A stretch of DNA of 64,000 bases from Botryotinia globosa (taxonomy: Eukaryota > Ascomycota > Leotiomycetes > Helotiales > Sclerotiniaceae): assembly GCA_014898425.1 (NCBI GenBank), contig RCSZ01000014.1:930001-994000 (forward strand), written 5' to 3'. The translations under genes were made by a program, and so were the position numbers. Under the pieces are notes generated by a model. That model was not told the origin of the DNA. It ran no database searches and worked only from the letters and a program-made list of their open reading frames with translations. How positions within the stretch are numbered: the stretch's first letter is position 1; each line of letters opens with the position of its first letter. Below, piece by piece: positions 19,388 through 40,868 of the stretch.

Positions 19388-20297
19388 TCAAATGTTGTGT
19401 GACCATCCACCCTTTTCTTTTCTTCTATAGGGGTACCCCCAAACCCCCAGCCTCACTTCGTTCGAGTCTTGTAGTAATTGATTTGATCGAACTGTATAAT
19501 CCAACTCTCTATCTACTGATATGCCACTTTCACTATGTTTGAAATGCTCAAAGGGAAAGGATGCCGAGACATCCTCATCCGTCGGCAGGCTGTCGATGCG
19601 GTCCGAGGAGATCGTCACGTGCTGGTAATCAGGGTGGTGCACTTTCAAGGACCGGAGCCAGGTGATCACCCGCCCTTTGCGGACCCGAAAGTCGGACCGG
19701 AACTGCCGCTGAACTGGTGGCCGCGATAGCGGTGGATCATCATCTGGACGTGCGACCGGGCGATGATCATCTCCTCGACCTGCGTCAGCTCAGGTAGATC
19801 CACCGGCATATCTCCTGGGTCCATCTCATTCTCGGCCGACATCAGGTACGGGCGCTGGCTCGGCTTGTCCCGCAGGGAGCACGCGTGGCACGTACCGTGT
19901 TTGAGATCAATCGCAAACCACCGCTCCCTGCACCGATGACACATCTCCATCTGTATCCCAGCCATCTCAGTATTAAAATCTTGAATCCACTGCCATTGTT
20001 GAGCGGGAAGAAAGCCGGGAGGGGGGGTAGTGGGTTTGCAGGTGGCGGTACAAACAGGGAAGGTGCAGGAGGTATGGCAGGTGTCGGGACCCAAGGAGAA
20101 AAAGAAGCTTCTGTATTCATCACCGATTCCGGTCCCAATTGGTGTGAAGCCTTCCTCTTTCTATCAGCACGCGTACCCTTCTTCCGGCAGGAAAGAAAGG
20201 TTGCAAAGACTCGACTGTTCGAGGCGGCCGATGCATCTTTGAGAAAAGAAGTGACGGGCAGCGCGCGGGCACAACTTGAGCAGCGTTTTGTATTCAT
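19388..20297 (-). pseudogene. decayed Helitron protein, copy 2 (N-terminal part)
   Basis: A second copy of the same protein's beginning. It starts MNTKRCSSCARALPVTSF at 20297, followed by a Cys-rich module. After a frameshift near a G-run (about 20019-20027) it continues with 'CHRCRERWFAIDLKHGTCHAC' and 'ENEMDPGDMPVDLPELTQVEEMIIARSHV', which fit the N-terminal domain of fungal Helitron helicase-like proteins. A further frame change and apparent deletion near 19700 lead to 'RKGRVITWLRSLKVHHPDYQ', normally some 50 or more residues further on. The frame then runs out into non-coding DNA. It is clearly inactive. Confidence 0.78.
19435..19466. repeat. CCCCCAAACCCCC motif, copy 2
   Basis: Same string as at 17982, here with 'AGCCTCACTTCGTTCGAG'. 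It lies at the downstream (minus-strand 3') side of Helitron copy 2. Confidence 0.6.
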
Positions 20298-20324
20298 TCG
20301 TCCACGATCACCAGAGTAGCTGTT

Positions 20325-20358
20325 GCCCCCAAACCCCCAAAGCTCACTGCGTTCGATC
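20325..20358. repeat. CCCCCAAACCCCC motif, copy 3
   Basis: Same string again, with 'AAGCTCACTGCGTTCGATC', just upstream of the start of Helitron copy 2. The next 80 bases (ACCACCACACGTGAGAGTGG) resemble 19150-19200, upstream of copy 1 (ACCTACTACACGTGAGTGTGG). Confidence 0.6.
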
Positions 20359-20381
20359 AAATACTGCACGGACCACCACAC

Positions 20382-21622
20382 GTGAGAGTGGTCTCCATGT
20401 GAGAGTGGACTTGTAAGTAGTACGTGATCACAAACTCACTTATCTCATCCTCAGACCGCACGGTGGCCTTAATTTCGAGGCAGGAGTATCCCGAAGGTTC
20501 ACCGTAGATAAACGTCCCCTCTCGATTCTGATTGGTCCGAAAAATTTCAATCATTAGTAAGCAACCCAAAATATCATCAATATCATTAAAAAGATGAACA
20601 TGAATAACCTCAATATTATAAACGTTTTATCGACGAAGAGGGTCTGAAAGTGAGATAAAAACTCACCCCAAACGAAATTGTTATAGAATTGCCTCACGTG
20701 ACACGTGCATGGGGTCGGGATATAGAAAAGCTCACGCTCTTGTTTTACTAACGTTTACTATAATATGATTCATCACCGAGTGGATCACTTTCACCTCAAT
20801 TGATACATTCAAATTCATATTATTCAACAACCATTGATTCAATTGATTAAAGCTATTAAGAATCTAATAATCTAGGATCTATTATATAAATTTGATAGAT
20901 TCTTGTTGCGACGACAACGGAGTCAAGGCATAGTGGTAAGATGAATCAATTATCGTAACTAGAGAATAACAAGCTTTATAGGTCCTATTCGATAGGACCA
21001 GGATAGGACCAAGAATACGCGAAATGATTTACTCTGCCGGGCAGGGTGAGTCATGTGACTAATTAAGGCTTAAGGCCGGATCGTCACAGTTATTGAGCTA
21101 TATATAAAATAATTTTATAAAATAATCGATTTTAGCTAGAATCATTAGATCAAAAAATCACGTTTTGGACAGATGTTATGAAATCGGGTGTAGGGTAGGC
21201 ACACCATCTAAGATAGTGCTTAGTCACGCTATAATACTTTTACTTTGCTGCGAATTTCTCTCGACGAATTCTGCAGCGTAGTATTGAGACCTTGTGCTTT
21301 ATGCTCATTGGAAGATTTGAAGGTTACTTGATATGTACCCACTTTTTCTAAAATGCTCAAAGCATACAATTGTTTGCTTTGCTTTGGTTGGTCAATCATT
21401 GCATTATTATTTTCTGACTGTTCACAACCTATCCCCAAAGCATTAGTATGCTACTTGTTCACCTGACTATTTTTCCGGGCTGGCTTACTATAAGTTACCA
21501 AAAGAGGTTTGAGACTGGAATTCTCTCCACACCGCTAAGAAAGCCTGGGTTCTCGATTCCCAATTTTATAATATTCGTCTTATTGAGAAGAAAACCTGAT
21601 TGAAGCAAATGCGTTAATAGAC
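20382..21622. other. repeat-derived, AT-rich spacer
   Basis: No gene seen. The stretch around 20910-21088 contains a tRNA A-box-like string (AGGCATAGTGG, near 20935) and ends GGATCGTCACA, like the LTR-like elements elsewhere, but I could not define its left border or a target duplication. 20770-20830 (tcactttcacctcaatt) recurs in altered form near 25920. Confidence 0.4.
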
Positions 21623-22805
21623 ATGTCAATGCCGAAGCGGAGAGAATACTTGCCAATCCCAGGCTCCAGCAATGAGTCTCAGGCTTCACGTTTAGATTCT
21701 GACCTGGACCATGCTTCTGAAAAGCCATCCAGTGGAAGGCACGTAAATTTGAGCAAAATCCTAAACTTTCGATACTATATCGTGGCTCTTGTTGTCTGCA
21801 TCTGCTTCATGTTTGGTTTTATTAGTGGCTTTCATAGTAGCCCATCGATCCGCCGTCCCTATACAACAGGACATGGTACAACGTCTTCATGCGTCACACA
21901 GGATACTAGGCGTGAATGGCGAAGTCTCAGCCACCTCGAAAAAGACGCCTATATCTCAGCAGTCCAATGCCTCCCCACTCAACCATCGATACTCAATCTC
22001 CCCCATACGCTCTACGATGATTTCGCATGGGTGCATACTCACAAGGGCGATGAGACACTTGACACCGCCGGTTTCTTCCCATGGCATCGGTATTTCATTC
22101 TATCGTACGAGAAAATCTTGCGAAAACAATGCAATTATACAGGCAGCATGCCATACTGGGATTGGACGCTTGATTGGACTGACTTTCATTCTTCACCACT
22201 TTGGGATCCCCACACAGGATTTGGCGGCAGTGGAAATACCTCAGCAGCAGCAAGCGTCGGCAGAGGACATTGTGTAACAGATGGCCCTTTTACAGAGCTG
22301 AGGCCTCTTTACTATGATCGCGATATTCAACAACACTGTCTTTCAAGAGCATTCCGTACTGGCGAGACGCTGGAACTTGCTATGAGTAAAATTTCACCAG
22401 CAGCCGTGGAAGCTGTGTTGGCACGACAAGACTATCAGAATTTCACATTCTGGCTGGAGAAGGATACACATAAATCCATGCCCTATGTTATTCAAGGAGA
22501 ATGGATGAGAACAAGTGTGACGAATGGTATGCAGTACTTAGATTGGCCTTGTTCAAAATTATACGCTAACTACAAATCCAGATCCGATATGGTTTTTGGC
22601 ACACATGCAGCTTGATCGATTGTGGTGGATATGGCAATCAAGGAATCCGGAGACACGATTTTACGAGTTTCACGGTGTTGGGTGGGGAGGATCAAACCAA
22701 GATGCCTCGCGGAGTGATAAAGTAGATATAGGAGGACTATTGCCAAGTATCACCGTCGAGCAGTTACTACGCACTGATTCCGATATCATGTGCTACAAGT
22801 ATTGA
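21623..22805 (+). CDS. UstQ-like tyrosinase-family oxidase
   Basis: Two exons, 21623-22526 and 22582-22805 (375 residues). The 55-nt intron is GT..AG, and the join restores the family string 'DPIWFLAHMQLDRLWWIWQ'. A transmembrane segment at about residues 52-71 (YIVALVVCICFMFGF) makes it a type II membrane enzyme. Copper-site A is 'FAWVH' then 'AGFFPWHRYFI'; 'MPYWDWTLD' is typical. By my alignment the second His of site A reads Leu and the second His of site B reads Pro, so the copper chemistry may be atypical. In ustiloxin and phomopsin pathways a tyrosinase (UstQ, PhomQ) oxidises the peptide Tyr. Its place next to the RiPP genes suggests the same job; that is inference. Confidence 0.82.
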
Positions 22806-23400
22806 ACTGTCTGAACGGTCCGATATCGATTCAGTACATTCACATGCTTACGAGAAAAGCGTTTTAACTCCTGAAAGTCCTATCAGGAAGCGTGTCATAC
22901 TCTGCTCTTAGTTCTTAACTCTTGCAACCTCTAAGAACGCTTCAAAATTCAAATAAAGGCCATAGTTCTGATTGTTGTGTAACTTCTACTTACAATTTTG
23001 CAAATGACTATGTGTATGTATTAGAATTTCATTAATAGTGTTTTTTCAAACTTCGATAAATAGTCATGCAGCAATAATACATTACGAGCGATTAACGCAA
23101 GATTATAAGCTGTTGGGCTTATTGTAACTGCTTCTTCTAATAGCTTACTGTCCATGGATCTACAGCTGATTTACAATCTCCCCCCATTAAGTTCAAGATT
23201 TCGGGTTTTATCCTCAGGTATTTATAAAAATATATAAGGTCTATAGATAAATTACCCAAGTAAAAAGTCAAGAGCGATTTTGTTGCTTATAGTCTTGCTA
23301 CAGCACAAGCTGGTCTTTACACTCCATTTCTTGACTACCACTGGCACACTTAGACCGATCCGGATTAGAAATCCCATCTCCAGTCCGAAATCAGGAAGAA
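22806..23400. promoter_or_regulatory. spacer between tyrosinase and S28 peptidase genes
   Basis: AT-rich. It holds the 3' end of the tyrosinase transcript and the promoter of the peptidase; a TATA-like 'tatttataaaaatatataagg' is at 23219-23239. No other gene seen. Confidence 0.45.
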
Positions 23401-25746
23401 ATGTCACGTTGTGGAGTCATGATCCCATTATGCCTGTGTCTAGGCCTTTTACTTTCACCTTTTGTTACTACTGCACCTGAATGGGCACTAAAGACGATGA
23501 CGATTGTTCGGTGGTATCCTTTTCCAAAAATAGTCAACAAAGATAAATTTTCTATTCCCAAACCCTCATGCTCATTGGGTTTGGACATGCAAATCGACCA
23601 CTTCAACAGCTCGGACAACCGCACCTTTAGGAATTGCTATTGGCTCAATGATACCTTCTATCGACCAGGAGGTCCAGTGTTTTTCTTCGATACAGGTAAA
23701 TCATTTCTTTGGTTCTCTTTACATTTGAGCTTTGCCGGAATTCTATGCGTGGGTCCTGGGATAGATTTCTTAGAAACATAACGTCACAAATAGCTGGTTG
23801 TACATGCCCCTGAGTACTTCTATGCCATAACTTCCACTCACTGTAGACCATGAGGCTGACCATTGTGTTTCACTATCAGGCGAGCATGGTATCTCCGAGT
23901 TCATGGTGTCTATGCTGTTGGAGGAAGCGATGGGTCGCTCCGCTTTGATGGCACTGGCACAGAAATACAATGGACTTGCCATACTTTGGGAGCACCGCTT
24001 TTATGGTGCAAGTCTTCCATTTGAGCTTGAAAATAAGACTGGAGTTGCTTTAGCCGGGTTTGATGCCTACAAGTATCTTACGACTGAACAGGTACGTGAG
24101 ATGGCACCTAACTACATGGGTCCTGGTGCAGAAACTAGTACTGTCTCGATCTCGAATTGCATTGTTTGTCTTTCAATCCAAGAAAGTCTGACCCAACGCG
24201 CTATATGAACTAAACCAACCGTTATGTAGGCACTCGAAGATACTGTCTATTTCGCACGAAATTTCCAGCCATCTACACTTCGTAAATACTGGCTGATGTT
24301 ATCCCCAAGTAATACGCCATGGATCTTTATTGGTGGAAGTTATCCAGGTGAGTCTACTGATCAGTTGACCTATCTAAGCGCCTGCCCTTTAGCTTCTCGA
24401 TATGCGACATCCAGACGGATGTCGATCGAAATTTACTGATGTAAATCCATATGACCTATAGGTATCAGAGCTGCAATCGCTCGGCAACGCAATCCAGAGA
24501 TATGGTTTGCTAGCTGGGCATCCTCGGCACCAGTGCAAGCACAGGTTGATATGTCGGTCTATTTCAACCCAATTCAGCAGGCTATGACGGACAATTGCTC
24601 AAAAGACGTGCATATTGCTGTCGACTACGCTGATAAGGTATTTCAGTATGGCAGCCGGGATGAAGTCTTGTTGCTTCGACAAGAGATCTACATGACTGGT
24701 CGGGCCAATCCAGCTATCAACAAAGGTCTCCACTCAGTAGATAACTTTCCGCTTTCGCCAACTGATATGACTCTATGGGAAGCTTCCCAGATACTTGCGA
24801 CACCTTTCCAGCACACTAGCCATAACTTCCAGCTTTATGGTTTTGACTCTGCATTGTTATCTTTCTGCAACTACCTCGAACAATACGATCCATCGGCTTC
24901 TGTTCTCTTTCCTCACAGTGCGTCGGCAAACGAGGTTGAGGCCTTCAGGGATTGGATTCAAACCAGCCATAGCTCTACATCTACAAGAATCGGTATTGCT
25001 GCCACATACAATGCTTCGACCGCATTTTTTGCATATATATCAGCTATCTATCGAAAGATGGCCGATGACTATTCAGACCAAGGGTCGGGCTTTTCATTAC
25101 CACCATCTTCACTTGGAGATGGCGTAAGCTGGAAATGGCAATATTGTAGCGAATTTGGCTTCCTCCAAAGCTCCAACACTACAAACCCATTCAACTTGAT
25201 ATCTCGTTTTGACAACATTTCGAGCGAAGAGTCAAATATTTGCGCGGATACTTTTCCATATGCACCTCAGTTACCCAATGTCAGCGCAATCAATGATAAA
25301 TATGGCGGCTGGAAGATGGCACCGTCCAATGTAAGTGATAAGAACTCAATCATGGTATAGTGGTATGGTCGTACTTAGATTTCTAATAGGTCATGTTTTC
25401 GAATGGTGAAATGGATCCATGGCGAACACTTGGAGTCCAGGCAGATCTCGAGATCAATCCAAATGCGGTCATTAGGAAGTCTACAAAGACAATACCTACA
25501 TGTAACATACCCCCTCCGAACGGGGAAGTTTTCGGACAAGTGTACCCGGCTCAGGTAAGTCTGCCTTATCACAGAAATTACATTGCCCACAATTGTTACT
25601 AACTGTCTCTTCAGGTGCACATCTCGGATCTCTTATCCTCATTCTATATTGAGATTGAAGATCAACCCTCGCCTTTCGAAGCTGGTTTTGACCTTTTCAC
25701 AAAAGCACTAAATGAGTGGTTACCGTGTTTCAACGGACTGCATTGA
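23401..25746 (+). CDS. secreted serine peptidase of family S28 (prolyl peptidase type)
   Basis: Six exons: 23401-23695, 23880-24091, 24230-24347, 24462-25330, 25390-25554 and 25615-25746 (596 residues). All joins keep the frame. An N-terminal signal peptide (VMIPLCLCLGLLLSPFVTTA) is followed by 'LDHF'-type 'MQIDHFNSSDNRTF' and 'GGPVFFFDTGE'. The nucleophile is the Ser of GGSYPG, restored across an intron; Asp is in 'SNGEMDPW' and His in 'QVHISDL', completing the triad. S28 enzymes (lysosomal Pro-X carboxypeptidase, DPP7, Aspergillus prolyl endopeptidase) cleave after proline. The RiPP core encoded 9 kb away contains Pro-Tyr, so this enzyme may trim or destroy the peptide; that is inference. 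Several Asn-X-Ser/Thr sites fit secretion. Confidence 0.87.
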
Positions 25747-26103
25747 TGGAAATGGGAATAGCTTAGGAAGCCCATTACAATGTTTCCATTTGGACACACA
25801 CTTTCATAAATGGGATGGGTCCTGATTGACAGAAAAAAAAACATGGTCAATGCGCGAAACATCTGGAGCAAGATTGAATTTACATAACGTGGTTCATTAG
25901 TATGTGGGCCATATCACTGTATGAGTCACTTTTACCTCAATTAATAATTCTTCAATTCAATATACGATCTATCAACTATTTATTATGAAATCCAATAATA
26001 AAGAAGCTTGATTCCTTTTAGTTATTAAGATTATTCAAAAAACAAAAAAACTAAGTATTTGAAAGGCTTTTAAGCTACATAATATTTTGTATAATATGGT
26101 TTA
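25747..26103. other. AT-rich spacer with a possible MITE end
   Basis: No gene. At 25886 the string ACGTGGTTCATTAGTA closely matches the terminal repeat of the element at 39782-40551 (ACGTGGTTYATCAGTAAG). No matching right end was found, so this is probably a remnant. Confidence 0.4.
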
Positions 26104-26628
26104 TATTACAGGAGCTGTCTCTAGGGTCATATAGAAATATCTAGAGATCTTTCGAGATAGTTTAAACTAAACTTCAAATAGGAATTTGATTAAAATAAAA
26201 ATTGATTATAATTCTTATAACTATAATATAAAATTAATAATTATTTTTGAATATAAAACTTTATATTATAATGAAATCCTATTCTCTTATATAAACCTGT
26301 ATTCTTTAAAGCTCTTTTGGATTTTAAACTCCAAGACTTTTAACTCCTTAAATCCTAAATTCTCAAAGCTCCATTATATAATATCAGTTATATGACTCGG
26401 AGATATGTTACTCATTATAATACTAATATGATTTATAGGTATATGAGTTATTTTATTTATATATAATATAAAGTTTTATATTTAAAAATAATTATTAGTT
26501 TTATATTATAATTATAAGAATTATAACCAATTTCCATCTTGATTGAATTCCTATTTGAAATTTAATTTAAACCACCTCAAGAGATCTCTAGACACTTCCA
26601 TATAACCCTAGAAGCAGCTCCTATAACA
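26104..26628. repeat. inverted pair of RIP-mutated LTR copies
   Basis: The left arm (26104-about 26300) and right arm (about 26440-26628) are inverted copies of one sequence, ending TATTACAGGAGC and CTCCTATAACA. A much less AT-rich relative lies at about 40680-40868. Aligned by eye, differences are mostly C-to-T and G-to-A (for example CACGTGACCC against CATATAACCC), as expected from RIP. Flanks read GTTTA and GTTAA, a possible 5-bp target duplication with one change. No coding content. Confidence 0.72.
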
Positions 26629-26687
26629 GTTAAAACTTTAATGTTCGGCTTTTTCTCGAGGTCGCGAGACAAGCTACACAGTACAAG

Positions 26688-26847
26688 TGTCACGGGCACC
26701 CCTGGGAGCATTCAGAAGCTTTACCGCTAGGCCACAAAAGCCAAAAGACTAGGAGGTAGAACTAGAAGTTCTACCTTGCCCTCGCATATATAGCAGGACA
26801 GGACAGGAATCAGGTGATCAGAATGAGCTAGTGTCGACCCCGTGACA
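26688..26847. repeat. 160-bp solo-LTR-like insertion, target duplication ACAAG
   Basis: Starts TGTCACGGG and ends CCCGTGACA, a perfect 9-bp inverted terminal repeat with TG..CA ends. The flanking five bases are ACAAG on both sides (26683-26687 and 26848-26852). On the minus strand it carries TTGTGGCCTAGCGGTAAAG, which fits a tRNA A-box. The size and duplication fit a solo LTR or a very short TRIM-like element. Confidence 0.8.
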
Positions 26848-27402
26848 ACAAGCGGCGTAGAAAAAGCTCGCTGCTTTGATATTTTAGGACTTGGGACATG
26901 GAAACAAAGCTTAAGCCAAGTTTATTTCAACCACTCGGAGCTTTCAAATTTTATTAATGTGCTTGTTTGGAGAATGACTAAGAAATGGTCAGTCCAAGAA
27001 GGGAGCTAACGCCATCCGGTGGTACAGTAAGCCACTAAACTACTTCAGGCTGGGTACAGTCATGTAAATAGCCGCCAGTGCCATGATGATAACAAAAATA
27101 TCTTGGGCAAGCCAATGGAAAGTTCTATTCGCTGACCATTACCTAGTTGAACACAATACTACACTCATGGCAACTGTTCAGCTCTGATAAGATGAAGAGC
27201 AAGGATAGGTATATCCCCAAGGGACAGCTGCCTAAGTAGGGAGGTGTCCTATACAACTGCTTTTACCGGTTGGAATGGTCAATACCCAGCCACATACATC
27301 TACTCTGTAGTTTCTTTTGCTCGAGCCAAAGTTTGCATTATTCCAGGAATCTTTAGTTTCTTTAAGCTTTTCCATTTTCCAACCTATTTAGTATATACAA
27401 AG
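26848..27402. promoter_or_regulatory. 5' region of the MFS transporter
   Basis: No gene seen. The frame of the transporter's first exon is open upstream to about 27244, but the first ATG in it is at 27403. Confidence 0.4.
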
Positions 27403-29116
27403 ATGACAAGAAACGAGCGAGAGTATAACATGCCTGCGGACATTGTATGTTACAAATACCCATCAGCCACCTCCGATATTGCTAATTGTTAGCTTAGAGC
27501 TTTTCAGTACCGGCAAAATCGCCGGGATATTCGCCAGAAATTGACACTGTCGAGTTGAGAGAGACTAAGGATACTTTAAAGGCTGTGCCAAACGAAGAGC
27601 TCAGCACCGATATCAGTGTCGACCCAGTCTCAAGCACTGGGAAGCCTAAACTTCCGGAAATGAATTTAGATAAAGGCATTGTGGGCTGGGACAGTCAAGA
27701 GGATCCATCTATGCCTTTAAATTTCTCGCAGAATCGAAAATGGGCTCTCCTTGCCCAAATTACTGCAATCACATTTGTTTCTCCATTATCGAGTACGATT
27801 TTCGCCCCCGGTGCTACTTTCATGGACAAAGACTTCCACAATTCCAATTCACTCCTCTCAAGTTTCACCGTCTCTGTTTATATTCTTGGTAAGATCTTTA
27901 ATTCTGTGCTCCTGCCCGAACTAACGGCAATCTAGGATATGTCCTTGGACCTTTATTTATCGCTCCCGCGAGCGAGTGTTGGGGTCGCAGGCCTGTTCTT
28001 TCGGCCACAAACTGGTGGTATGTCATTTGGCAGGCCGGCTGCGCAGTTGCGCCAAACATAGGGTGTCTAATAGCGTTTCGGTTTCTTGCTGGATTGGGCG
28101 GTGCTGGCTGCATGACCCTCAACGGTGGAATTATTGCTGATCTGTTCGTTCCCGAAGAGCGAGGAGCCGCCAATGCCCTCTCTGCAATTGGCGTCATTTT
28201 TGGCCCCGTTATTGGCCCTATTTTTGGCGCTTTCATCGGGCAAAGAGCAGGCTGGCGCTGGATATTCTGGGTCCTTTGCTGCTTGAGTGGAGTGATCACC
28301 ATCGTGATTCAGATATTCAACAAGGAAAGCTATGCTCCCGTCATAATCGCAAGGAAGACCGCCAAATTGTCGAAAGAGCTAGGTCGTAAAGACCTTAGGT
28401 CTTGCTATGACGTTGATGAAGTGGAGACGAAACCCGAAAAGTTTCAACGTGAGTTCACGCGTCCTCTTCGAATGCTGTTCCTCTCACCGGTTATTGCTCT
28501 TTTCTGCACGTATATGTCTTTGGTCTATGGGCTTCTCTACCTACTTCTCACGACTCTACCCATGGTCTACACGGAAACATATCACTGGTCAACAGAGCTC
28601 ACCGGTCTGGCATCACTCGGAATCGGGATTGGATTTTTCGTGGGTCTCGTGGTTATTGGTTTGACAAGTGACAAAATCATTGTCAAGCTAACTAATTGGA
28701 ACGGTGGTATCTATGAACCAGAGATGCGACTTCCATACATGACTCTCTTCGCAATTCTCATTCCAATTTCTTTTTTTTGGTATGGTTGGGCTGCCGATAA
28801 AGCGGTCCACTGGATTGTACCAATCATTGCTCTTTCTCCTTTTGGATTCGGTATGCTGGGCATCTTCTTCCCAATTCAGATGTACCTCATTGATGCCTTT
28901 CCCGTTCACTCGGCCTCGGCAATGGCAGCTTTGACGGTCTCACGATCCCTTGTTGGTGCATTATTGCCGATGGCTGGACCGCAATTATACAGCTCACTTG
29001 GACTTGGGTGGGGCAATTCCTTGTTGGGGTTTATCGCTTTGTTGATGGTTCCAATGCCCTACTATCTCTGGAAATATGGTGGTACTATTAGAAAGAGACA
29101 CGTGATCAAACTGTGA
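27403..29116 (+). CDS. MFS drug:H+ antiporter (DHA1-type) transporter
   Basis: Three exons, 27403-27444, 27498-27888 and 27936-29116 (537 residues). The first exon has only 14 codons; its intron is GTATGT..CTTAG with a CTAAT branch. An alternative start is Met10 at 27430. The cytoplasmic N-terminus has 'GWDSQEDPSMPLNFSQNRKW', and 12 transmembrane helices follow. Motif A-like 'GPLFIAPASECWGRRPVL', 'RFLAGLGGAGCMTLNGGIIADLF' and 'GVIFGPVIGPIFGAFIG' (motif C) mark the DHA1 fungal multidrug group. Proton-driven export of small molecules is usual for it. It probably exports the peptide product of the surrounding RiPP genes; that is inference from position. Confidence 0.88.
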
Positions 29117-29784
29117 AGTCAAACTACTCTACTAAAATTGGTATCTCACAAATTTCCTGGGATAGAAGCTATGACTAAGGTCAATCGAACTAGTTTTATC
29201 AATAACACTTAATCGTGTAGCAAAATTTCCATGCAATTAAGACCCTACACCTAAGAGGTTTTCACCGTGCTGGTGGTGCAAGTGACTCCCCCTATCGCGT
29301 CATTTCAGCCACTCCAGATAATCCTATTCTAAAAACTGTCTCTCTCATTTGTTCCTAATTTGTTCCAGGGAATATGTGATGTTTTAAATTGCAAATATCT
29401 TTTACTTCGAATTGGCACTTGGAGTCCTGGTAAATGGGCGTATTCAATTGGAACCAAATTAAGACCTTGGCACTGATGTCAAACGGACTGATCTAACCAT
29501 CTTAGCGGTGATTATCGGCAGGAAACACAGTTTAGGGGAACAGAGTGAGGGTGATATCTGAAGATTTGAAGATGGTATTTGAATTTGATAGAAATATGTG
29601 CATGTTTCTACGATCGTGCAAGTTGCCGTTCAGTCCATGTATTTTCAAGGCGGGTTGGCCATAATGACTAACAAGTTTCAAGATAGATGCAACCTTTACA
29701 TAATAAACTTCTTCTCTCACATAATTCTGGATACTACATACGGTATTGTTTGTTTCCCATATTCCGACGGCTTTGCTTGAGCAT
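29117..29784. other. intergenic between convergent genes
   Basis: 3' flanks of the MFS gene (plus) and the DOMON-b561 gene (minus). Nothing else recognised. Confidence 0.45.
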
Positions 29785-31233
29785 TCAGTCCATTTCCCCC
29801 TTACCATCTGTCTTTGCTCTCCCGTCTCCAACAGTTTCTGCGTCTGAGCTCTCACCATCATCGTTTTCGTCATTCAATGCGAAATAGCACTCTGAGTTTG
29901 CGATCCCACCATCTATCCATTTGACACCTTTTGCCACTTTAACCCAAGGAACTTTGAGATTATTTCCAAGTGGTTCTCCAATAGCATGCCTATAGATAGA
30001 AAAACTAAGTCCACACGCATTGATGGCAGAGGCGATAGCGAATCCAACTTTCAGGTTTACCGTGTAATCACTAAGATCTAAGCCTGCAATAAAATTCGCC
30101 CAGCCTCCCAGAAGAACGAATCTTCCGATCCAAATGTGGACACTTCCCATCCATGTCTTCCTCTTCAATCGTGAGAATACACGGTGGTGCTGCAGTCCTA
30201 ATCCTAGCTGAGCAACCAAGGCAGTTCCAAGTGCTATACCAATGTACTGGTGCCATACACTGACTTTAGAACTTAAGAAGAATCCAACGGTGATTCCAGC
30301 GAGCCCCAATATCGAGCCAAGGATTTGCGGGATGAGATGTAGATACAGGGAGTGAGGCGAGCCGCTGCGGATGAAGAAGGCCCCCAAAGGAAGGAGTAAA
30401 AATAAAGAGGCCACTAGAAGGAGGCCATGGAGTAGCCATATTTTTCGTTTGTGTTTGTAAGGGACTGTTTTGGCGCTCTCGGAGATGTCATTGTCGTAGT
30501 GGTTGTGCGCTTGATTTAAGTTTTCGTAGTCCTCTGGGACATCCTCGACTTCTGACGCAGGGGGATAAGGTTTGAGAAAATTTGAGATGGTGGCTGGGAG
30601 TTGATTGGGTTCGATGCCTTTCTCTTTCGTCATGTCGAGGTCAAAAGCACCGAAACGATTGTGCATCAGTAAATCTGCATCATCTGCATATTCGACAATA
30701 GAGAAGTCTTGGTCTGTATTCATACCCCAGATAAAAGGTAGGACTGGAGTTATCGCTGATCTATCTGCATTGTACCATGCATTGCAACCATAACAAACAA
30801 AACTTGCTACGGCTGTTTTTGAGCTCTCCTTGTGTGAAGATTCCCAGGAAGTTTCAATATAACCTATATGAATTCCGTGTTGGTGCTGGTCTCCGAGGGA
30901 CAAGTTTACAGGTGGGAGATGGCGGCTTGTCGAACGGATGCTGAGTGTCGGAGGCGATTCCAAATTTGGATCTCCATATAGAACGAAAATGATGGATCCG
31001 TTCATATGGGTGCCAATCCCGATTGATGACCAGCCAGCAGCGTCATGCTGTGTGCGGTTAAATGTCATGATGAAGTCTTGTTTAGATAGAGAATCATCCT
31101 CATAAGTTGCCAATGAAACACAAAAGTCATTGTTTGAGCCGTGCCCAAACGATTTACAGAGATAATCGGGCTCTCCAAGCACACAATGCAATAGAAGCAA
31201 AGATGCTGTATGGGAAGTACTTGTGAAGCGCAT
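29785..31233 (-). CDS. DOMON-cytochrome b561 membrane redox protein
   Basis: Single exon, 482 residues from the ATG at 31233, chosen because it opens a signal peptide (MRFTSTSHTASLLLLHCVLG); an ATG 8 codons upstream is possible. Residues about 25-200 form a secreted DOMON domain like the cytochrome domain of cellobiose dehydrogenase, with 'AGWSSIGIGTHMNGSIIFVLYGD', where Met77 would be a haem ligand. A cytochrome b561 core follows with five to six helices and His residues in 'LLHGLL', 'YLHLI', 'VWHQY' and 'GSVHIWIGR'. Such proteins carry electrons across membranes (for example ferric or ascorbate-linked reduction). In this cluster it could feed electrons to copper or UstYa-type oxidases, or just be a neighbour. 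The C-terminus is acidic and cytoplasmic. Confidence 0.85.
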   Translation of the reverse strand: MRFTSTSHTASLLLLHCVLGEPDYLCKSFGHGSNNDFCVSLATYEDDSLSKQDFIMTFNRTQHDAAGWSSIGIGTHMNGSIIFVLYGDPNLESPPTLSIRSTSRHLPPVNLSLGDQHQHGIHIGYIETSWESSHKESSKTAVASFVCYGCNAWYNADRSAITPVLPFIWGMNTDQDFSIVEYADDADLLMHNRFGAFDLDMTKEKGIEPNQLPATISNFLKPYPPASEVEDVPEDYENLNQAHNHYDNDISESAKTVPYKHKRKIWLLHGLLLVASLFLLLPLGAFFIRSGSPHSLYLHLIPQILGSILGLAGITVGFFLSSKVSVWHQYIGIALGTALVAQLGLGLQHHRVFSRLKRKTWMGSVHIWIGRFVLLGGWANFIAGLDLSDYTVNLKVGFAIASAINACGLSFSIYRHAIGEPLGNNLKVPWVKVAKGVKWIDGGIANSECYFALNDENDDGESSDAETVGDGRAKTDGKGEMD

Positions 31234-33024
31234 ATTGGTTCCGCAAAAAAAGGTCAAGTCAGGAGATTGCTAATTCAATCAAGCAGCCCGCAACCAAGGT
31301 TCTTTTTATATGAGGAGAACATACAAGCTATGGGAGTGATGGAAAGAAGGATGTAATGGGAAATGGAGCCTCGATTCGTCTTCGCTTGTCAGGGCTTATC
31401 AATGAGGGGATCTGTAGCGCATGATGTGCGTAGTCAATTATGAAAAGATACATATACCATTGGCTTATTTGGCCTGTATCAAACTTACAATATGGTGGGT
31501 GGTAGCAATCTGACAAGTTTGGATTCTTCGCACCAAATAATGCCACGAGGCTTGGTACTGTCAGACGTGGTGGGGCGACTTACTAAAGTAATGTAAGAAA
31601 CCAAGTAGGCGAACAGAGCTGCGTACAAACTATTCCTAATCTAATTCGTGCAACCTGAGCTATCCTTATCTCTCGATGCTCTGACTCTGATGATGTTGTC
31701 TTTGCTCTGATGCTTGGGCCGTTGCCTAGTGAATAACGAATAGCTAGTTACGTGGTCGGCTCTCTTCTAAGATGATCCTCAAGGAAACGTATAGTCATAC
31801 CCGACTACCATATTCGTCCTGTATGTACCAATCCATTATCCAAATCCCCTTCTAACCCTTTTTTCACCTTTTCTTTGATCATCCAGGATGGAAACAGACC
31901 TTTTCATCGTTTTCAATCCAATTGGAATCATTGTGGAAGGTTTTCCCCCTCATTTTAGAGTTTCCCTTTCCTATTTAGAGTTCTCCCCTCCTTTTGAATT
32001 TTTCTACCCTTGCCACCTCTTCTTATTAGATCTACTATACAAAGTACTGAGAAAAAATTCGAATTTTATATTCCATAATACAAAATTTTCAAAAAGTTGA
32101 AAAATTCAGGCTTTAAATATTGGTTAAATGATGTAACAAAAGTTTTGCTATACGGAATGCGTATTGTCTGATGTTCAAGTCTAGTCTGACTTTCGAAGAG
32201 CATAAAGCTGCTTCTACTTCCATTGGAAGGATTGAGGCTGTTTTGAATACTCCATAGCACCCCATTACTCTCTATTAAAAGCTCAAATGAGCTTTTAATT
32301 GTTCTATATATTCTTGGACCAAGAAAGAACATTAATTAAATCAATTAATCGATCATTCACTTGGACTTGACAGGGAACATATATGATCTCACTCCGCCGG
32401 GATTTATGTATTTAGCAATGCCATATAGACTTAGATAGATGATTCAATATACACACTCTCCACCTAGCACTTATTGGCACGTGCTTATGCCTACCTATCT
32501 CTAATGTTTCTTTGAACAAAGTTCATGCTGGATTACAGAATCATGGAACTGTGGCCTCCAGTACATTCTATCCGATAAGTGATGACTTGCCATCGAGTAA
32601 AGTATACAACAATCACATATCTGCGTACTAGAATACAGAAAATTGCATGTCGGCTTGCTGTGTTTTAATAGTGACCTTGTTTACTCACACAAGAAAGAGA
32701 ACGCTTTTAGAAATTGGCAATCAGTTGTTTAGTAAGCAGATGTATCGAAGTGCTCGAGCACTGTGAGTTGAGGAAAATATGCAGTGCAAATAGCTACGAA
32801 GTCAAATTGCAAAGTAGTCTTAGAGAACACCTATTTGCCTAGCCCAAAAATATCGTATTGAAGATGCAAGAAACATTGACAGTATCGGTGGTATCTTTTG
32901 GTATTTGTTTACTTGTTTTCTCGAACAATCTTATTCCAGGTACGCATCGCAAACATCTTTGTTGACTTCAGGATCTAGAATATGCATTTTTGCTATAAAT
33001 ACCCCTTGCTGTTCGACTCGCTTC
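31234..33024. other. gene-free interval inside the cluster
   Basis: No gene recognised. ORFs at 31888-32100 and 32066-32332 are AT-driven with no domain. The first part serves as promoter for the DOMON-b561 gene. Confidence 0.4.
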
Positions 33025-33940
33025 TCAAGACAACAATGAACCATATGGCAATCCATCGACCCCATTGTCACATTTTCCCCATTTTGTTTCTCCTGATGGT
33101 GCCACATAATCATGGTAGCAAGATGTGAATCCTGAGGCCCATTCTCGCAAAGCATCCCAATCGCGACACTGACGTGTCTGATTAATCCCCGCATCATTGT
33201 GCCCTGTTGTATACAGGAGCTCGTCATTAGCCATGCACATGATACTCTGACGTAAAGAATCGAAACAATGGAGATCGTGTTCCAGTGGACGATCTGGTGT
33301 CTCACCGCGTCGGAGATTCATATAATGACGACGAAGGGTTTGCTAAAGGCTGTATCAGTCTTGTATGTCAATAAAGAAACATACGCGGAAGGCAGCTTAC
33401 AAGGCAATGTATGCCGTGATAGCCTTCAATGACGTATACTCGTTTTGAAGAATCTCGAGGGTGAATCAAGGAATCTGGAAGGCCACGGGCAGCAGCCCAC
33501 TCAGGTGCGACTGAAACGAGTCCATGTCCTGCTTCAATGGCTGTCCATGATTTGTCCTCCTCCTCCTCATCGTCGTTCCAGAACCGTGTTGGGACATGCG
33601 CTATACGGATATTATCGCGTGCGTAACTCAATCCATCTATTTTTGCACGATTAGCCTCTACTTTCCTAAGAATTGAAATACATGGCATACTTGGCGAGAA
33701 CTTGGGAAGCTGATGTGATAGCTCTATTCTCAGCTGAGCAATGAACAGGCCCTGAATCAAGGTAATTATGATGAGTGCAATATTAGTGACGAGAAAGACT
33801 TTTCGACGTTGAAACCAAGGTCCGGATTCCGTCTTACGGGAAGTGGTTGAATGTTTGAGAAACTCCTCCTCTTCGTCATCAGTATGTGATGAGTTCACAA
33901 AAGAACCCCGTAGCTGTGAAATCTTCGCTTCAAAATTCAT
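33025..33940 (-). CDS. UstYa-like (DUF3328) oxidase A
   Basis: Two exons on the minus strand, 33940-33401 and 33342-33025 (285 residues), with a 58-nt intron (GTAAGC..TTTAG). The N-terminal cytoplasmic part is acidic; one transmembrane helix at about residues 47-70 (KVFLVTNIALIIITLIQGLF) is followed by a lumenal domain. Both HxxHC motifs that define the family are present: YHGIHC (H175, H178, C179) and EHDLHC (H202, H205, C206), the second created across the splice. 'RQCRDWDALREW' is the usual C-terminal signature. UstYa and UstYb install the cyclising ether bond in ustiloxin, and homologues serve asperipin, phomopsin and victorin pathways. Its start faces the precursor gene 568 bases away, so the two may share a promoter. 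Confidence 0.9.
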
Positions 33941-34508
33941 AATAAAGCGATCAACAAGCAAATCCAGACAAACTGTATACTGGAAAGCTAAATCAGAGTG
34001 GATAATATTAACGCTCTTAAATCTGAAGATAAGCACATATGAGCATTGCCAACTGATATGAAGGTCATCGATCTCATCTCACTAGGTCAGCGAGTTGAGG
34101 CATCAGTACGTGTAATACAGTACACAACTTACCGCAAGCAATAGTCAGACCATATGTATCACTCGGTAGATCTTGAAGAAAGAAAGTTTTCTGACTAAAT
34201 ATCTGACTCAGACTGATTTCCCCACACCAGTCACTACTAAACTCATCAGTGACATTTTGACTAAGCACGTTTGAGCCTACATGCAGAGCAATGGCTTTAT
34301 CAATGCTCCATATTATCACTGATGAGGCGCAATCAGTGAATACTACTTATACGTCTAGGCCCAATCACTTCGTTTGTTTCCTAACACAAGAATCTTTGCC
34401 CACTCTTAGAAACTCGAACTTCAAAAGCATCAGTCTATATATACTCAAATCCTGCAAGCAAAAACATAAAGCCTCACTTTTTTTGCCACTAAAACTATAC
34501 ATATCACA
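33941..34508. promoter_or_regulatory. divergent promoter of UstYa-like A and the RiPP precursor
   Basis: 568 bases between the two start codons. A TATA-like 'tatatatactc' lies at about 34436-34446, 60-70 bases before the precursor ATG. It may allow joint control of both genes. No operator was identified. Confidence 0.5.
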
Positions 34509-34883
34509 ATGCGTCCCATCTCTGTCACCACCGTCTTAGTCCTGGCCTTGGCCTCGACCGCATGGGCTTTACCAACCATGGAGGATGCCACTCCCTACAA
34601 ACGAGGTATGGAGGATGCCACTCCCTACAAACGAGGTATGGAGGATGCCACTCCCTACAAACGTGGAATGGAGGATGCCACTCCCTACAAACGTGGTATG
34701 GAGGATGCCACTCCCTACAAACGTGGAATGGAGGATGCCACTCCCTACAAACGAGGTATGGAGGATGCCACTCCCTACAAGGAAAAACGTGGAATGGAGG
34801 ATGCCACTCCCTACAAGGAAAAGCGTGGAATGGAGGATGCCACTCCCTACAAACGTGGTATGGAGGATGCCACTCCCTACTAG
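34509..34883 (+). CDS. dikaritin-type RiPP precursor with ten core repeats
   Basis: Single exon, 124 residues. Residues 1-20 form a signal peptide (MRPISVTTVLVLALASTAWA). After LPT, the rest is ten copies of MEDATPY. Six are followed by KRG, two by KEKRG and one by KRG, and the last ends at the stop. Lys-Arg sites fit Kex2-type processing in the secretory pathway, which would free units beginning with the Gly after KR. This plan matches UstA, PhomA, AprA and VicA precursors, whose core Tyr or Phe is oxidatively cross-linked by UstYa-type enzymes. Every core copy is identical at protein level, while DNA differs only at synonymous third positions (cga/cgt, ggt/gga). Neighbouring UstYa-like and tyrosinase genes support the assignment. 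The final product is unknown. Confidence 0.92.
   Translation: MRPISVTTVLVLALASTAWALPTMEDATPYKRGMEDATPYKRGMEDATPYKRGMEDATPYKRGMEDATPYKRGMEDATPYKRGMEDATPYKEKRGMEDATPYKEKRGMEDATPYKRGMEDATPY
34578..34880 (+). repeat. 30-bp coding tandem repeat (ten units)
   Basis: Ten units of about 30 bp, each starting ATGGAGGATGCCACTCCCTA; units 7 and 8 carry six extra bases (an added Glu-Lys). Near-identity between units suggests recent amplification or gene conversion. The regularity keeps other frames and the antisense strand open, which creates false ORFs. Confidence 0.95.
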
Positions 34884-36041
34884 GATCCATGCCGCTTGAA
34901 CGATTCATCTTGCTTCACGAGGGCAATTGGCGACGGGCAAGGAAGCGGGAGGTTGAAGATGGTTGGCGGTGGAGGTTGTGATGATTTCCTTGTTGATTTT
35001 AGCTTGGGGGCTTCAAGTAATTGTCTCTATTATGCGGCAGGGGTTGCCTCTACCCATCTTGAAATCAGACAGATGCTCCAAATTATACACTCATTTCGAA
35101 TCCGTTACATCAGATGCTTATTTCCGTATCCAGTTGATGGTACTACACTGTCATTTAGTCTTGGTAAATAGAATACTTGAAATTCAATACCTTATGATGA
35201 GCGAACCAGCTTATCATGTTGTGCTTTGTCAACCGACTAATGTCACTGTATCGGCAAAACCTCACGTGGGTGACTATTTGTTGGATAAAATCACAACAAT
35301 TTTATCGTCAGGCGCAACCATAATATTGGCCGTCACAATCCAGTGAGTAGCTGCTGCTGATCCTACCAGGGAGTGAGAGCAATTAAATGTAACGTGACAT
35401 TCGATATTGGCTATACATTCTTTGCTCTTGATCTCCGGGGCTTAGCGCTAGACCTCAGTTGGACGTACACACAAGGCTGGGAACTAGTCTCGCTAGTATG
35501 ACACCTTCTGCACGGGCCATTCTGAATGACTAATCTACGTAGTTATCGCTACAGTAGTGTTATCGCTGGTACTGATAACTTGCAATAGGTACCTAGTATC
35601 TTTCTTCTCTGAATTCAAACAATTCCGTACTCGATATTCGACATTCGATACCCAAGTTTGTGGTTTTTTTTATCACGCTAGCCTTACGATACATTCCAAG
35701 AGTTTCCAAAAACAGCTAGTAACCTAAGCCATATGTCCCACGTCTTAGTATCTCTGACTGTACTCATACTCAGTGTATTAGTCTACTCGCGCGTGTGGCT
35801 TATGCGTGAAGCCGATAGATTTTTTCACTGTACATTTGATGTGCCTGATGATTATGATTACATACTGTATCTTATACTCATGTTAAGTCAATATGTTTTA
35901 TCAGTAGACAATTCTTATTGTACGTAGCTTGTATTATATCACACACTTTGGGCCTTTACTAGAATGTGGTACTTGAGGTTTGCTTCATACCGCTCTAACA
36001 ACCTATTCATTCAATTACCATCGCTTCCAATTCGTTATTTT
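34884..36041. other. intergenic between precursor and UstYa-like B
   Basis: The first 460 bases are probably precursor 3' region; ORFs at 34896-35171 and 34963-35346 are without recognisable content. The rest is AT-rich promoter DNA of the next gene. Confidence 0.4.
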
Positions 36042-37247
36042 ATGATGGAATCTCAGGACGAGTCTATGGAACCTCTCAATTCCGGCTTCCAAGGTTTAGT
36101 TCAAAGCGAGGATTGTAATCACCCCAAGAGCTATGTCAGGAAAAGATGCTCTGCTCGACGCAATTTCTTCTTGATTGCTACATTTCATCTGTTAGCTTTT
36201 CTCTTGTCTTTGCTTGCAGCTGTTGCCGTGGCAAATCATAAGACAATTTACTGGCGCTCTCGCGAGCAAAAATGTCCGAAACCCCTGATACATTGTGAGG
36301 TTTCAAAGCATTCACAATAATAGTGTGCTATTGCTAACTGGAGAATAGCACCAGCTTATGATGGAGCGTTGTACAACATTGTCACAATTGAAAGTAGCAA
36401 ATTAATCGGGTCGCCATTCTCTGGCAATCCGGGCCCAGCAGTTGACAAAGCGTGGGATGACTTAATGAGTAGTATGTCTGCAAAATTTGACTGTTGGGGA
36501 AATTCTCACACGCACCCAGGAATAAATATACGTATTTCGGAAGACGATCTTCGAAAAGTCAATGGGACTTCAATAAAACTTGCTGACGGTTCCAACGACT
36601 ATTGGGGATCGATAGAGGTATATCATCATCTACATTGTTTGGTAAGTTTGAGTCCCGTCTTCTGTATGAACACGTTCAACTTGTTCGTTTGCTGAGAAAC
36701 TTGCCAGAAAGTCATCCGTCATTACATAGCCAAGGATTATTATCCCGACGCTCAGAAATTTGTCACTGAGCCCGGAATGATCTATCCCGAACATATTGGT
36801 AAATTTAATCCCTTTTTCCCAATCTCAGCGAAGGTTGGCAGTCTGCTTCTTTCTGCCTTTCAATTTCAATATGTTCAATTGTTCGCTAATTCATACCCTC
36901 AACGCATAGAGCACTGTATCCAAACTCTCCGTGAGCACCTACCTCATGTGTCAACCGGACCTTAGTATCTATACTTATACTTGGCGGCCTAACAGCTATG
37001 ACCCGCACGCTAATGATCGTACCAAACATAGCTGTATTGATTGGTCGAACTTTGAGGCTTGGTCGGACCAGAGGAGATTTTCCGAATATGACGAACGAGG
37101 CTTGCTGAGAAAAGATGATGGTAAGTCTGATTTTAGTATTCTTCATGTTATTCGTTGCACAAGTAGCCTCCAGAGCACCGAGTTTGAACTGATGATCCTC
37201 GGGGGAATCTAGGTACGATCTGGGACCCAAGGAAACTGCATGCTTGA
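36042..37247 (+). pseudogene. UstYa-like (DUF3328) oxidase B, frameshifted near the C-terminus
   Basis: Exons 36042-36294, 36349-36641, 36708-36798 and 36910 onward, with clean introns. A transmembrane helix (FFLIATFHLLAFLLSLLAAVAVA) lies at about residues 44-66. The joins restore 'SPAYD' and both family motifs: HHLHC (H177, H180, C181) and HIEHC (H211, H214, C215). Soon after the second motif a tandem acctacct (36937-36944) puts the frame out, and translation stops at 36963-36965, giving 230 residues. The expected C-terminal part ('YTYTWRPNSYD', 'SCIDWSNFEAW') continues in another frame from 36946, with an intron 37121-37212, to a stop at 37247. Either this allele is damaged or an assembly error is present. 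The truncated form keeps both motifs, so residual activity is not excluded. Confidence 0.75.
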
Positions 37248-37703
37248 AGTGGTTCCAAATTTGTTCCATATTGGTCAAGAAAATGATCTTTGATAACGTT
37301 GGATATGATGCTACACATCAGAGCAAATAGTCAGGAAACTATGGCCGGAGAGGATTTCTACTGGATATGAATCCATGAGTGATGTGTATAGTTGTTATTT
37401 ATACATGAATAAATCAACAGAATAGCGATTAGCTGTGTATAATAGACGCCATCTCCCGTAGCTTGCAGAGAGCTTGGGACTTGTCTTCGTCCATCACTCA
37501 GCTTGAAATCACGCGCTGAGAGGTTTGTTTATCGTGACACGACAGCACACAACATTAATATTTAAATCTTCAAACTGAGAAAAGACATTAATAAAATCAA
37601 ACAAATCGATCAACATGAATGCGACTCAGTCCCACCACAATGCCTGTCATATTTCCAGATATTTGACATGGATGTCCCACTCAGTCACTCTTTTCACCAG
37701 TGT
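37248..37703. other. spacer between convergent genes
   Basis: 3' flanks of UstYa-like B and the bZIP gene. No feature seen. Confidence 0.45.
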
Positions 37704-39507
37704 TCAGGCAAGTACCAATCCAGAGTCGAAGATGCTTTGCCGAAGCTTTTTTTGGAGAGATAGAGTAGCGATACGATGGCAAGTATGACATGGGAGCGGT
37801 TTTGTGAATGCACAGCTGCCACATCTGTAGTGAGAGCTGACACCAGCGACCACAGATTTGGAAGCTATTCGAAGATTAATTACGGCTTTGCAGCGTGGGG
37901 TAAAAAAGATAGTCAACGGTGCACCGGGATTCAAGCTTACCATTACCTGGAATTTCTTTTGGGCTTGTGCAGCGGAAATTTCGACAGGAGCAATGTGGCC
38001 ATTGGCCAACGGTGAATTTCCTGCCAAAATGCCAATGATTGTATCGCATTCTTCTCTGTTTGTGCACTCAGCTACTAGTAGATCTTCTGCAGATTTAAAA
38101 GTCTCATCGAGGTATCCTTGAGCCTCCCATTGTGTCCAATTTACTGCGTTCTCGCGCAGAGCAACAAGAACTTTCGGTAAGCCTCGTCTTCGGCTGAGTC
38201 TTTGGACGCTTGCTACTACTGAATCATCACTGAAGTCTGCAGTGTAATAGCTTGATATTACTGAATCGAAATCTGTGAATCCAACGATCCTCGAACACTC
38301 TAATAGAAAGTTCAATCTTTCGTTGAAGCTTGCTCCCTCTACAGGCACAGAGGGCATATTTGCTGTACTTTCCTTGGGCTCGGGGTTTATAGCCTTTGGT
38401 GTTGAGGACATAGTTTCAGCTACTGATTTTTCAGTATCTTCGCCGAATATTTTGCAAGATCGCGGGTGCTTAGAAGCCGTTCTTTCAGAATACCTCTCCT
38501 GGGGCGCATCGACTGGGAATATTGCCGAATCTATATATGACATGGCAATATCATCTTGAAAATTCTCCTCGTGTGGGCTAGCAAGCGGGTTTTCTTCAGT
38601 GTCTCTATAAAAATGTGGGTAGCTTGCACCACAGGGTTCGTTCCATGTATGTGCCTCGTCAACTTAAGAGAGTAAAGTCTTAGCGGCTCAATCCAACTTT
38701 CTTGACAAGAGAATGAAACTTACTTAACGTGTTACGATCGAAGTCTTCCCCCAAACTATTGAGCATAGTAGAAAAAGAAGATTGTTTTACTACATCTCGA
38801 GGGGAACTCGAATTACCATTCAATGATTTATTAGCCATCACGGGCATACTGCCGTGTGTGCGGTTTGAGAGCGCGGGAGAATACGTAATTATATGATCTA
38901 GATTGCGGTGATTTGGCTGCCTAGCTTTTGCCTGGGGGTGTGTCGCCGTTGGATCAGGGGAGGACAAGGAATCTAACATCTCTTGTTCGATGTGGGAGCG
39001 AGGGTCACCGCATCTGGACTGCTGGTGCAATGACGCTCCATAGCCAATATTACGGGGCAGTTGATTCTGGTATGCGCATGTAGCATAGTGTTTATGATTT
39101 CCATCGAAGTGACGCAGGTCGTGGTAATAGTGAAAATTGTCGTCTAAAGCTAAACCAACACTAGACTTAGTGCCCACCTGCGCCACTGTAGTTTGTCGTT
39201 CAAGTTCTTCAATTCGTCGTTTTAGGTTTGTTCCTGGATTAAAGTCAGCTTATCCAAATCTTGTACAGCCACAGCGAACAATGTAATGACGTGAAGAAAA
39301 TTTTGTCTTACTGTAATTCCTCTGAGCAATGCGATTTTGTATCCGCTTGCGGGCCCTTTGATCAGAAACCTTTGACCAATCTTCATCATCATCAGGAGCC
39401 GAAAGTTGATGAGAAATCTGAGAATTGTGGGTACTGACCGAGGTCGGATGAGGCGTGGCGGGGATTTCAGACATAGCGGGATTGAGCAATAAACTTGCAA
39501 AGTCCAT
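37704..39507 (-). CDS. bZIP transcription factor at the cluster edge
   Basis: Three exons on the minus strand: 39507-39312, 39233-38724 and 38662-37704 (554 residues). The first intron splits the bZIP: basic region 'DQRARKRIQNRIAQRNYR' (residues 49-66) joins 'TNLKRRIEELERQ' after splicing, the usual fungal AP-1-like pattern, with a short leucine zipper. The middle is polar and probably disordered. A helical C-terminal region (LNFLLECSRIVGF, 'VLVALRENAVNWTQWEAQGY') is found in many fungal bZIP regulators of unknown function. The last 70 residues after 'AQAQKKFQ' could instead be intron plus another exon, so the C-terminal end is uncertain. Position suggests a pathway regulator, but ustiloxin's UstR is a Zn2Cys6 protein, so this link is inference. 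Confidence 0.82.
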
Positions 39508-40098: not shown

Positions 40099-40359
40099 TG
40101 TGACGATATGCCTTAGAGAGCTGAATAAACAGGGTTCATTTCATCCTTAGAATCTAAAGCTATAGAACTATAGCTCTCTGGGAGGCTCTTTATATACATG
40201 ATCTCGTACGCTAACGGAGCGGCTTCGGCCGCGTTCTTCTTCGATCTTACCATCACCATTTTCCCATAGTAAATCCTCGAAATCCGATCGTGCGCGAACG
40301 GACCATCGGCTTCTTCGTTATCCCACGTGATTTACCTGAATGTATGTGACTTCGTGACA
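40099..40359. repeat. 261-bp solo-LTR-like insertion, target duplication GCCG
   Basis: Starts TGTGACGA and ends TTCGTGACA; GCCG precedes and follows it. It shares TTAGAATCTAAAGCTA with the element at 17687. Also nested in the MITE-like element. Confidence 0.7.
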
Positions 40360-40679
40360 GCCGAGAAATCACGATTCTCTTATCTCTCAATAACTGTTCG
40401 TTATTTTAAAGTTTTCTTTTTACTGAATAGTTCTTTGAATTTTTTGAATAGATTTTCTTATTAAAATAATGATTAATTATTAAAATCTGAATATCAGAAA
40501 AGCCTGAATTTTAGTGTATTTTGAAGTGTTCCGCTTACTGATGAACCACGTTAGTAAGCACAGATTAGATAAACAATAGTATCATTACAAGTCACGGTGC
40601 TGGGCCTCACGTGATCAGGAAACCGACTTATCGAAATCGGTTTTGTGGCAATCGACTTGTCGATTCGTAGAGTATGAAG

Positions 40680-40868
40680 GTCTATATAAGGAATAGATTT
40701 CATTACAATGTAGAGCTTCGTGCTCAAGACAATCATTAGTTTCTTACTATAGTTACAAGAATTGCAACAAATTACAATCTTATTGAATCCCTACGTGAAG
40801 TCTAGTCTAAACCACCTCGAGAGATCTCTAGACACTTCCACGTGACCCTAGAGGCAGCTCCCGTAACA
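40680..40868. repeat. LTR 3' part, the less mutated relative of the 26.1-26.6 kb copies
   Basis: Ends CTCCCGTAACA. It aligns over about 180 bases with both arms of the inverted pair at 26104-26628, keeping C and G where those have T and A. The left border is not clear and may extend to about 40560. Confidence 0.65.

Follow-up and report, generated by a model that had tools for sequence, protein, structure and literature searches.

Does the 18-kb block at positions 21623..39507 of a stretch of Botryotinia globosa DNA (assembly GCA_014898425.1, contig RCSZ01000014.1, forward-strand positions 930,001 to 994,000; the full 64,000 nucleotides are called the window here) encode the biosynthesis of a dikaritin, a UstYa-dependent ribosomally synthesised and post-translationally modified peptide (RiPP)? 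A first-pass annotation made from the letters of the window had proposed that a repeat precursor, two UstYa-like genes and tyrosinase-family, S28 peptidase, MFS transporter, DOMON-b561 and bZIP genes act together here to make a Tyr-cross-linked cyclic peptide. The block contains a repeat precursor, one intact and one broken UstYa gene, and tyrosinase-family, S28, MFS, CDH-cyt and bZIP-like genes (Table 1), and it is probably a dikaritin-type gene cluster of a known, widespread kind. We adopt this reading because a Kex2-type repeat precursor adjoins a UstYa gene with two HxxHC motifs and because the co-location of the block's gene families is unlikely to be due to chance. The class-defining parts of a dikaritin cluster are present and adjacent, whereas the two working UstYa genes and the ordinary tyrosinase of the original proposal are not supported; a tyrosinase-like protein from a ligand-poor clade together with the S28 peptidase makes the cluster a variant.

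The precursor, with its repeated cores and KR sites, was borne out. The open reading frame (ORF) begins with a hydrophobic N-terminus, MRPISVTTVLVLALASTAWA, which by eye resembles a signal-like leader, and continues with ten copies of MEDATPY whose 21-nucleotide core is identical in all ten. The spacers (KR seven times, KEKR twice) provide nine KR sites, and the tenth core runs into the stop codon. A leader followed by repeated cores at Kex2 (KR) sites is the architecture expected of a dikaritin precursor. Each core contains one Pro and one Tyr, which form its single Pro-Tyr bond ahead of the KR site. The uniformity of the copies suggests that the repeats were recently homogenised. No second copy of the precursor was found in the genome (fungal; 45,684,854 bases on 27 contigs), and MEDATPY, EDATPYKR and DATPYKR did not occur in the literature searched, which consisted of text rather than figures and included a minority of the subscription papers. 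MEDATPY is a new candidate core peptide, without a relative found, and provides exact masses to seek: the calculated [M+H]+ values are 883.3502 for linear GMEDATPY, 881.3346 and 879.3189 after one and two cross-links, 897.3295 for one cross-link with an added oxygen, and 824.3131 for singly cross-linked MEDATPY. Among 1461 strains surveyed previously, 1758 (22%) of 7878 Kex2 repeat proteins had DUF3328/UstYa genes nearby, the repeats of these contained Tyr in 65.6%, and tyrosinase genes were among the 15 nearest for 4.3% of Kex2 repeat proteins (PMC7329392). Two other signals were discarded: a weak genome match to the precursor (L022, E 0.04) turned out to be an unrelated repeat stretch, and a Pfam match to DsbA_N (28.1 bits) was dismissed as a repeat artefact.

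UstYa1 faces the precursor across a divergent promoter region. Its spliced product matches PF11807 with 91.7 bits (Pfam) and is identical in 267/267 residues to EAF02_006649 of Botrytis sinoallii, a member of a genus known for plant pathogens; identity to Penicillium viridicatum N7501_004237 is 64% by BLASTP and 69% in the multiple alignment. Going by this one marker, the host is probably B. sinoallii or closely related to it. The protein search returned 10 matches at E ≤ 0.001, using as query a model that still contained 18 residues of unspliced intron, which the P0112 match revealed; NCBIfam gave no match for UstYa1. A UstYa/DUF3328 protein with two HxxHC motifs, such as UstYa1, is class-defining for dikaritins (PMC12048977). 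The second UstYa-like gene of the original proposal fared less well. Its early and C-terminal pieces match PF11807 separately (38.2 and 32.6 bits) and, from the reading frames, we take the first UstYa gene to be intact and the second to be broken or mis-assembled.

Six-frame searches of the genome, whose counts are lower bounds, yielded 37 UstYa matches in 23 loci, as well as nine tyrosinase, four S28 and eight CDH-cyt loci. A tyrosinase, S28 or CDH-cyt locus lies within 50 kb of just one of the 23 UstYa loci, that of the block. Of 200,000 random placements, in a test chosen after the block had been seen, which assumes uniform placement and takes the lower-bound counts as given, 12.7% put a tyrosinase locus no farther than 15 kb from at least one UstYa locus, 0.04% did so with an S28 locus as well, and none with all three. 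A UstYa gene with a tyrosinase alone is therefore not striking, whereas the fuller set is, and the co-location observed in the block is unlikely to have arisen by chance.

The tyrosinase-family assignment holds at the level of the family (PF00264, 106.2 bits; N-terminal hydrophobic segment by eye) but not in the sense of an ordinary tyrosinase. Aligned with all 111 homologues found at E ≤ 0.001, the protein presents H138, L146 and H155 at the first type-3 copper site (CuA) and H283, P287 and H309 at the second (CuB); it lacks the second His of each site and retains four of six ligands. Type-3 copper tyrosinases and catechol oxidases have six His, and because two are missing we file the cluster protein as a tyrosinase-like relative rather than a tyrosinase. 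Among the 111 relatives, 68 carry Pro at the second CuB position, 36 carry His, 4 Ser and 1 Arg, and 2 have a gap; P0053, named ustQ (A. parasiticus), has His there and keeps all six copper His. At the second CuA position His is found in 100, a gap in one and another residue in ten, namely the close kin P0001-P0005 and P0012 and the divergent P0065, P0093, P0110 and P0111. A quick maximum-likelihood tree of 92/112 rows (rows below 280 residues and matches after P0100 excluded, P0004 and P0012 retained) places the query and its six close kin, Penicillium among them, in one clade with a support of 100 in the Shimodaira–Hasegawa-like approximate likelihood-ratio test (SH-aLRT). Residues invariant in these seven rows are rare elsewhere, as judged by their fraction among the other rows: H189 (0.02, n=104), W277 (0.00, n=103), D281 (0.02, n=100), K284 (0.00, n=103) and M254 (0.00, n=102). 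In three of these seven rows the gene models stop or diverge before the third CuB position, so that no His can be read there. Going by alignment and tree, loss of the second CuA His is old, common to Penicillium and others and accompanied by new fixed residues; the ligand losses, being old and common to Penicillium, are therefore not random decay in the present genome. The pattern suggests a conserved, altered partner, not an ordinary tyrosinase.

The best non-hemocyanin solved relative, A. oryzae catechol oxidase AoCO4 (PDB 4j3p), has ligands His102/110/119 and His284/288/312 (PMC5929527), and by spacing the second of each trio corresponds to Leu146 and Pro287 in the block protein. The accessible parts of PMC6514808 and PMC6941272 contain nothing on missing copper ligands. 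The top-scoring named non-Botrytis relative of the tyrosinase-like protein is from Penicillium polonicum (65% over 89%), and that of UstYa1 is likewise a Penicillium protein at a similar distance. A crude motif scan of the genome's nine tyrosinase loci found a clear CuB with HxxxH in two others (L009, L010), and NCBIfam returned for P0001 only matches far below cut-off. Gene deletions establish that ustiloxin and phomopsin formation require the tyrosinase partner, rather than how it acts (PMC6514808); a clade this poor in ligands, represented in a UstYa cluster, would allow one to ask directly if normal two-copper chemistry is necessary. Two side observations concern the same alignment. Exactly the five His other than the second CuB ligand occur in 46/112 aligned rows, a wide tyrosinase subfamily with five rather than six. 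P0004 (69% identity, 61% coverage) carries the name of the rust Austropuccinia psidii, whereas its named close kin come from ascomycetes; the rust assembly may be contaminated.

The S28 peptidase and the MFS transporter were both recovered as annotated, with 196.5 bits to PF05577 and, on the large exon, 155.6 bits to MFS_1, giving the block both a peptidase and a transporter where a dikaritin cluster is expected to have one or the other. The best solved match of the S28 protein is A. niger prolyl endoprotease (PDB 8b57, E 8.2e-32), followed by 7wab (a similar, differently named fungal chain), a pair of dipeptidyl peptidase 2 chains and a Pro-X carboxypeptidase. Of the S28 triad, the Ser (GGSYPG) and Asp (NGEMDPW) motifs align with the A. 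niger enzyme, whereas the region of the candidate His (VHISDL) does not. Since the only Pro of the core precedes Tyr and KR, a prolyl peptidase would be plausible as a processing enzyme. The DOMON half of the DOMON-b561 gene is confirmed by CDH-cyt (PF16010, 39.9 bits); the b561 half was recognised by eye from hydrophobic segments, without a Pfam match, and NCBIfam gave no match for the protein. The bZIP call falls below the Pfam cut-off (bZIP_1, 17.5 vs 27.6 bits), but its basic region has the usual N-x7-R spacing. No 8-mer is shared by at least four of the seven upstream regions of the block.

Sclerotinia and Botrytis belong to the same family. A putative RiPP cluster on chromosome 3 of Sclerotinia sclerotiorum, otherwise reported in Talaromyces atroroseus, is like the block in its description: it was identified by looking for tyrosinase and peptidase genes close to pairs of DUF3328 genes (PMC6941272). 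With the ustiloxin cluster (Aspergillus flavus, Ustilaginoidea virens) the block has in common a KR-repeat precursor, a UstYa-family oxidase, a tyrosinase-family protein and an MFS protein. It differs in that P0053, the protein named ustQ, has six copper His and the block protein four, in that Tyr stands first in the ustiloxin core YAIG and last in the block unit, in having an S28 rather than an S41 peptidase, and in lacking among its eight genes a methyltransferase, a flavin-containing monooxygenase, a P450 and a pyridoxal-phosphate enzyme. Asperipin-2a of A. flavus likewise involves a precursor and a transporter, and a single UstYa homologue suffices there; its cluster has four genes, no tyrosinase and a core, FYYTGY, with three Tyr (PMC6514808). 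The companions named for known clusters are S41 peptidases and zinc-finger regulators (PMC6941272, PMC6514808). In a literature search that took in a minority of the known-cluster papers, no match joined UstYa with an S28 peptidase, and peptidase S28 went unmentioned in the RiPP, ustiloxin and DUF3328 papers covered; the earlier remark that the S28, b561 and bZIP genes make the set unusual draws slight backing from these S28 negatives.

In order to rationalise how such a cluster might operate, we infer the following biochemical steps and the joint action of the genes. The precursor would enter the secretory route via its hydrophobic leader, a Kex2-like protease would cut after KR, and trimming of the basic residues would leave GMEDATPY units. 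UstYa1 would then oxidise the unit, most likely linking its single Tyr to another side chain, with the tyrosinase-like protein serving as a conserved partner or as an altered-metal enzyme. The S28 peptidase may trim the unit or cleave its one Pro-Tyr bond, export of the product may fall to the MFS protein, the CDH-cyt/b561 protein may handle electrons and the bZIP-like protein may regulate the set. A bolder joint reading, which we consider rather doubtful, holds that the ligand-poor clade, having dropped one His per copper site and fixed His189, Asp281 and Lys284, is a mononuclear or rewired metal oxidase or a non-catalytic UstYa chaperone, and that S28 has replaced S41 and cuts the Pro-Tyr bond.

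Several results weigh against a dikaritin assignment. The second UstYa gene switches frame between the region of its second motif and its conserved C-terminal part, and the claim that the whole set works is therefore weaker; ustiloxin formation requires UstQ, UstYa and UstYb, i.e. two UstY proteins and a tyrosinase (PMC6514808). Nor are UstYa/DUF3328 proteins exclusive to RiPPs, being found in clusters for polyketides and non-ribosomal peptides as well (PMC12048977). None of 73 word-sharing candidates from about 5.8 billion proteins was a homologue of the precursor at E ≤ 1, in a search of low power with a short and repetitive query. None of the 111 tyrosinase relatives is named Botrytis, even though the database searched does include UstYa1 of B. 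sinoallii; in that species the tyrosinase-like gene may be absent, lack an annotation or have a different gene model. A Pfam scan found no methyltransferase among the block's eight genes. An older five-part definition of dikaritins includes several UstYa genes, a tyrosinase and a methyltransferase, and working clusters that miss at least one of the five are known (PMC12048977); the absence of a methyltransferase does not exclude the block because the current definition does not require one.

How many of the genes cooperate is a separate matter. It is quite possible, if a little short of an even chance, that only a core set (precursor, UstYa1, tyrosinase-like protein and perhaps S28 and MFS) does so, with the CDH-cyt/b561 and bZIP-like genes as bystanders: known dikaritin clusters are listed with a precursor, UstYa, tyrosinase, S41 peptidase, transporter and zinc-finger regulator and, in the accessible parts of those papers, without b561 or bZIP (PMC6941272, PMC6514808), whereas the genome has few CDH-cyt loci (eight found) and that of the block sits between other members. 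We hold it unlikely that the block is a former dikaritin pathway losing its function, in which the second UstYa gene has already broken and the other genes survive by accident. The downstream part of that gene can still be read through in another frame, which would fit a recent lesion, and repeats occur within and beside the block; yet the frame break might be an assembly error, the precursor is undamaged with ten uniform copies, UstYa1 is identical in B. sinoallii and the copper-ligand losses predate this genome. Very improbably, the precursor might be a linear secreted signal peptide, a pheromone-like Kex2 repeat protein adjoined by oxidases of another pathway, since for 6120 of the 7878 fungal Kex2 repeat proteins the 15 nearest genes do not include a UstYa, mating factors are of the Kex2 repeat type (PMC7329392) and UstYa proteins have non-RiPP roles (PMC12048977), but it shares its divergent promoter region with UstYa1, has the second UstYa gene on its other side, and annotated pheromone-type repeat proteins, all but three, lack UstYa neighbours (PMC7329392).

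Table 1 Features of the candidate dikaritin-type block (window positions; aa, amino acids; nt, nucleotides)
Feature	Position	Strand	Details
Tyrosinase-like protein	21623..22805	+	375 aa; exons 21623-22526, 22582-22805
S28 prolyl-peptidase-like protein	23401..25746	+	596 aa; six exons: 23401-23695, 23880-24091, 24230-24347, 24462-25330, 25390-25554, 25615-25746
Inverted-repeat element, like a miniature inverted-repeat transposable element (MITE)	26106..26626		172-nt arms; kin to other genome repeats
MFS transporter	27403..29116	+	537 aa; introns 27445-27497, 27889-27935
CDH-cyt (DOMON) protein	29785..31233	-	482 aa; single exon; C-terminal hydrophobic b561-like segments
UstYa1	33025..33940	-	267 aa; exons 33940-33691, 33636-33401, 33342-33025; HGIHC and HDLHC
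Divergent promoter region, UstYa1/precursor	33941..34508		From gene positions
Kex2-type repeat precursor	34509..34883	+	124 aa ORF
Second UstYa-family gene	36042..37120 (3' end approximate)	+	Frame broken near second HxxHC motif
bZIP-like regulator	37950..39507 (3' end approximate, by eye)	-	Exon 1 39507-39312; exon 2 from 39233

The flanks of the block hold further fragments. To its right, repeat pieces at 40099-41318 have 33 genome matches including the query, the copies having diverged to 70-88% identity; two of these matches lie inside the block (26106-26298 and 26490-26629). To its left, a Pif1-helicase fragment at 18394-20435 (24.4 bits, cut-off 23.9) is perhaps a Helitron remnant, and a DNA search found no other genome copy of the 18400-20400 stretch. 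About 6 kb left of the block, at 14196-15392, lies a fragment of an AMP-binding enzyme (132.2 bits), which may belong to an adjacent metabolite gene.

A search for repeat ORFs beside UstYa genes, which covered 10 of the 22 other UstYa loci, passed two candidates elsewhere in the genome. One (L025+L026, LSYVNS) passed the repeat filter and was dismissed by eye, as it has no leader. The other is a second Kex2-type repeat ORF (G000:C13:74626-75291; L035:7027-7692, -), in which KR or KEKR separates GFFNNND-like units. Two UstYa matches (C13:76892-77356 and 78015-78392) lie close by, the nearer at a distance of about 1.6 kb, and the ORF probably marks another dikaritin locus.

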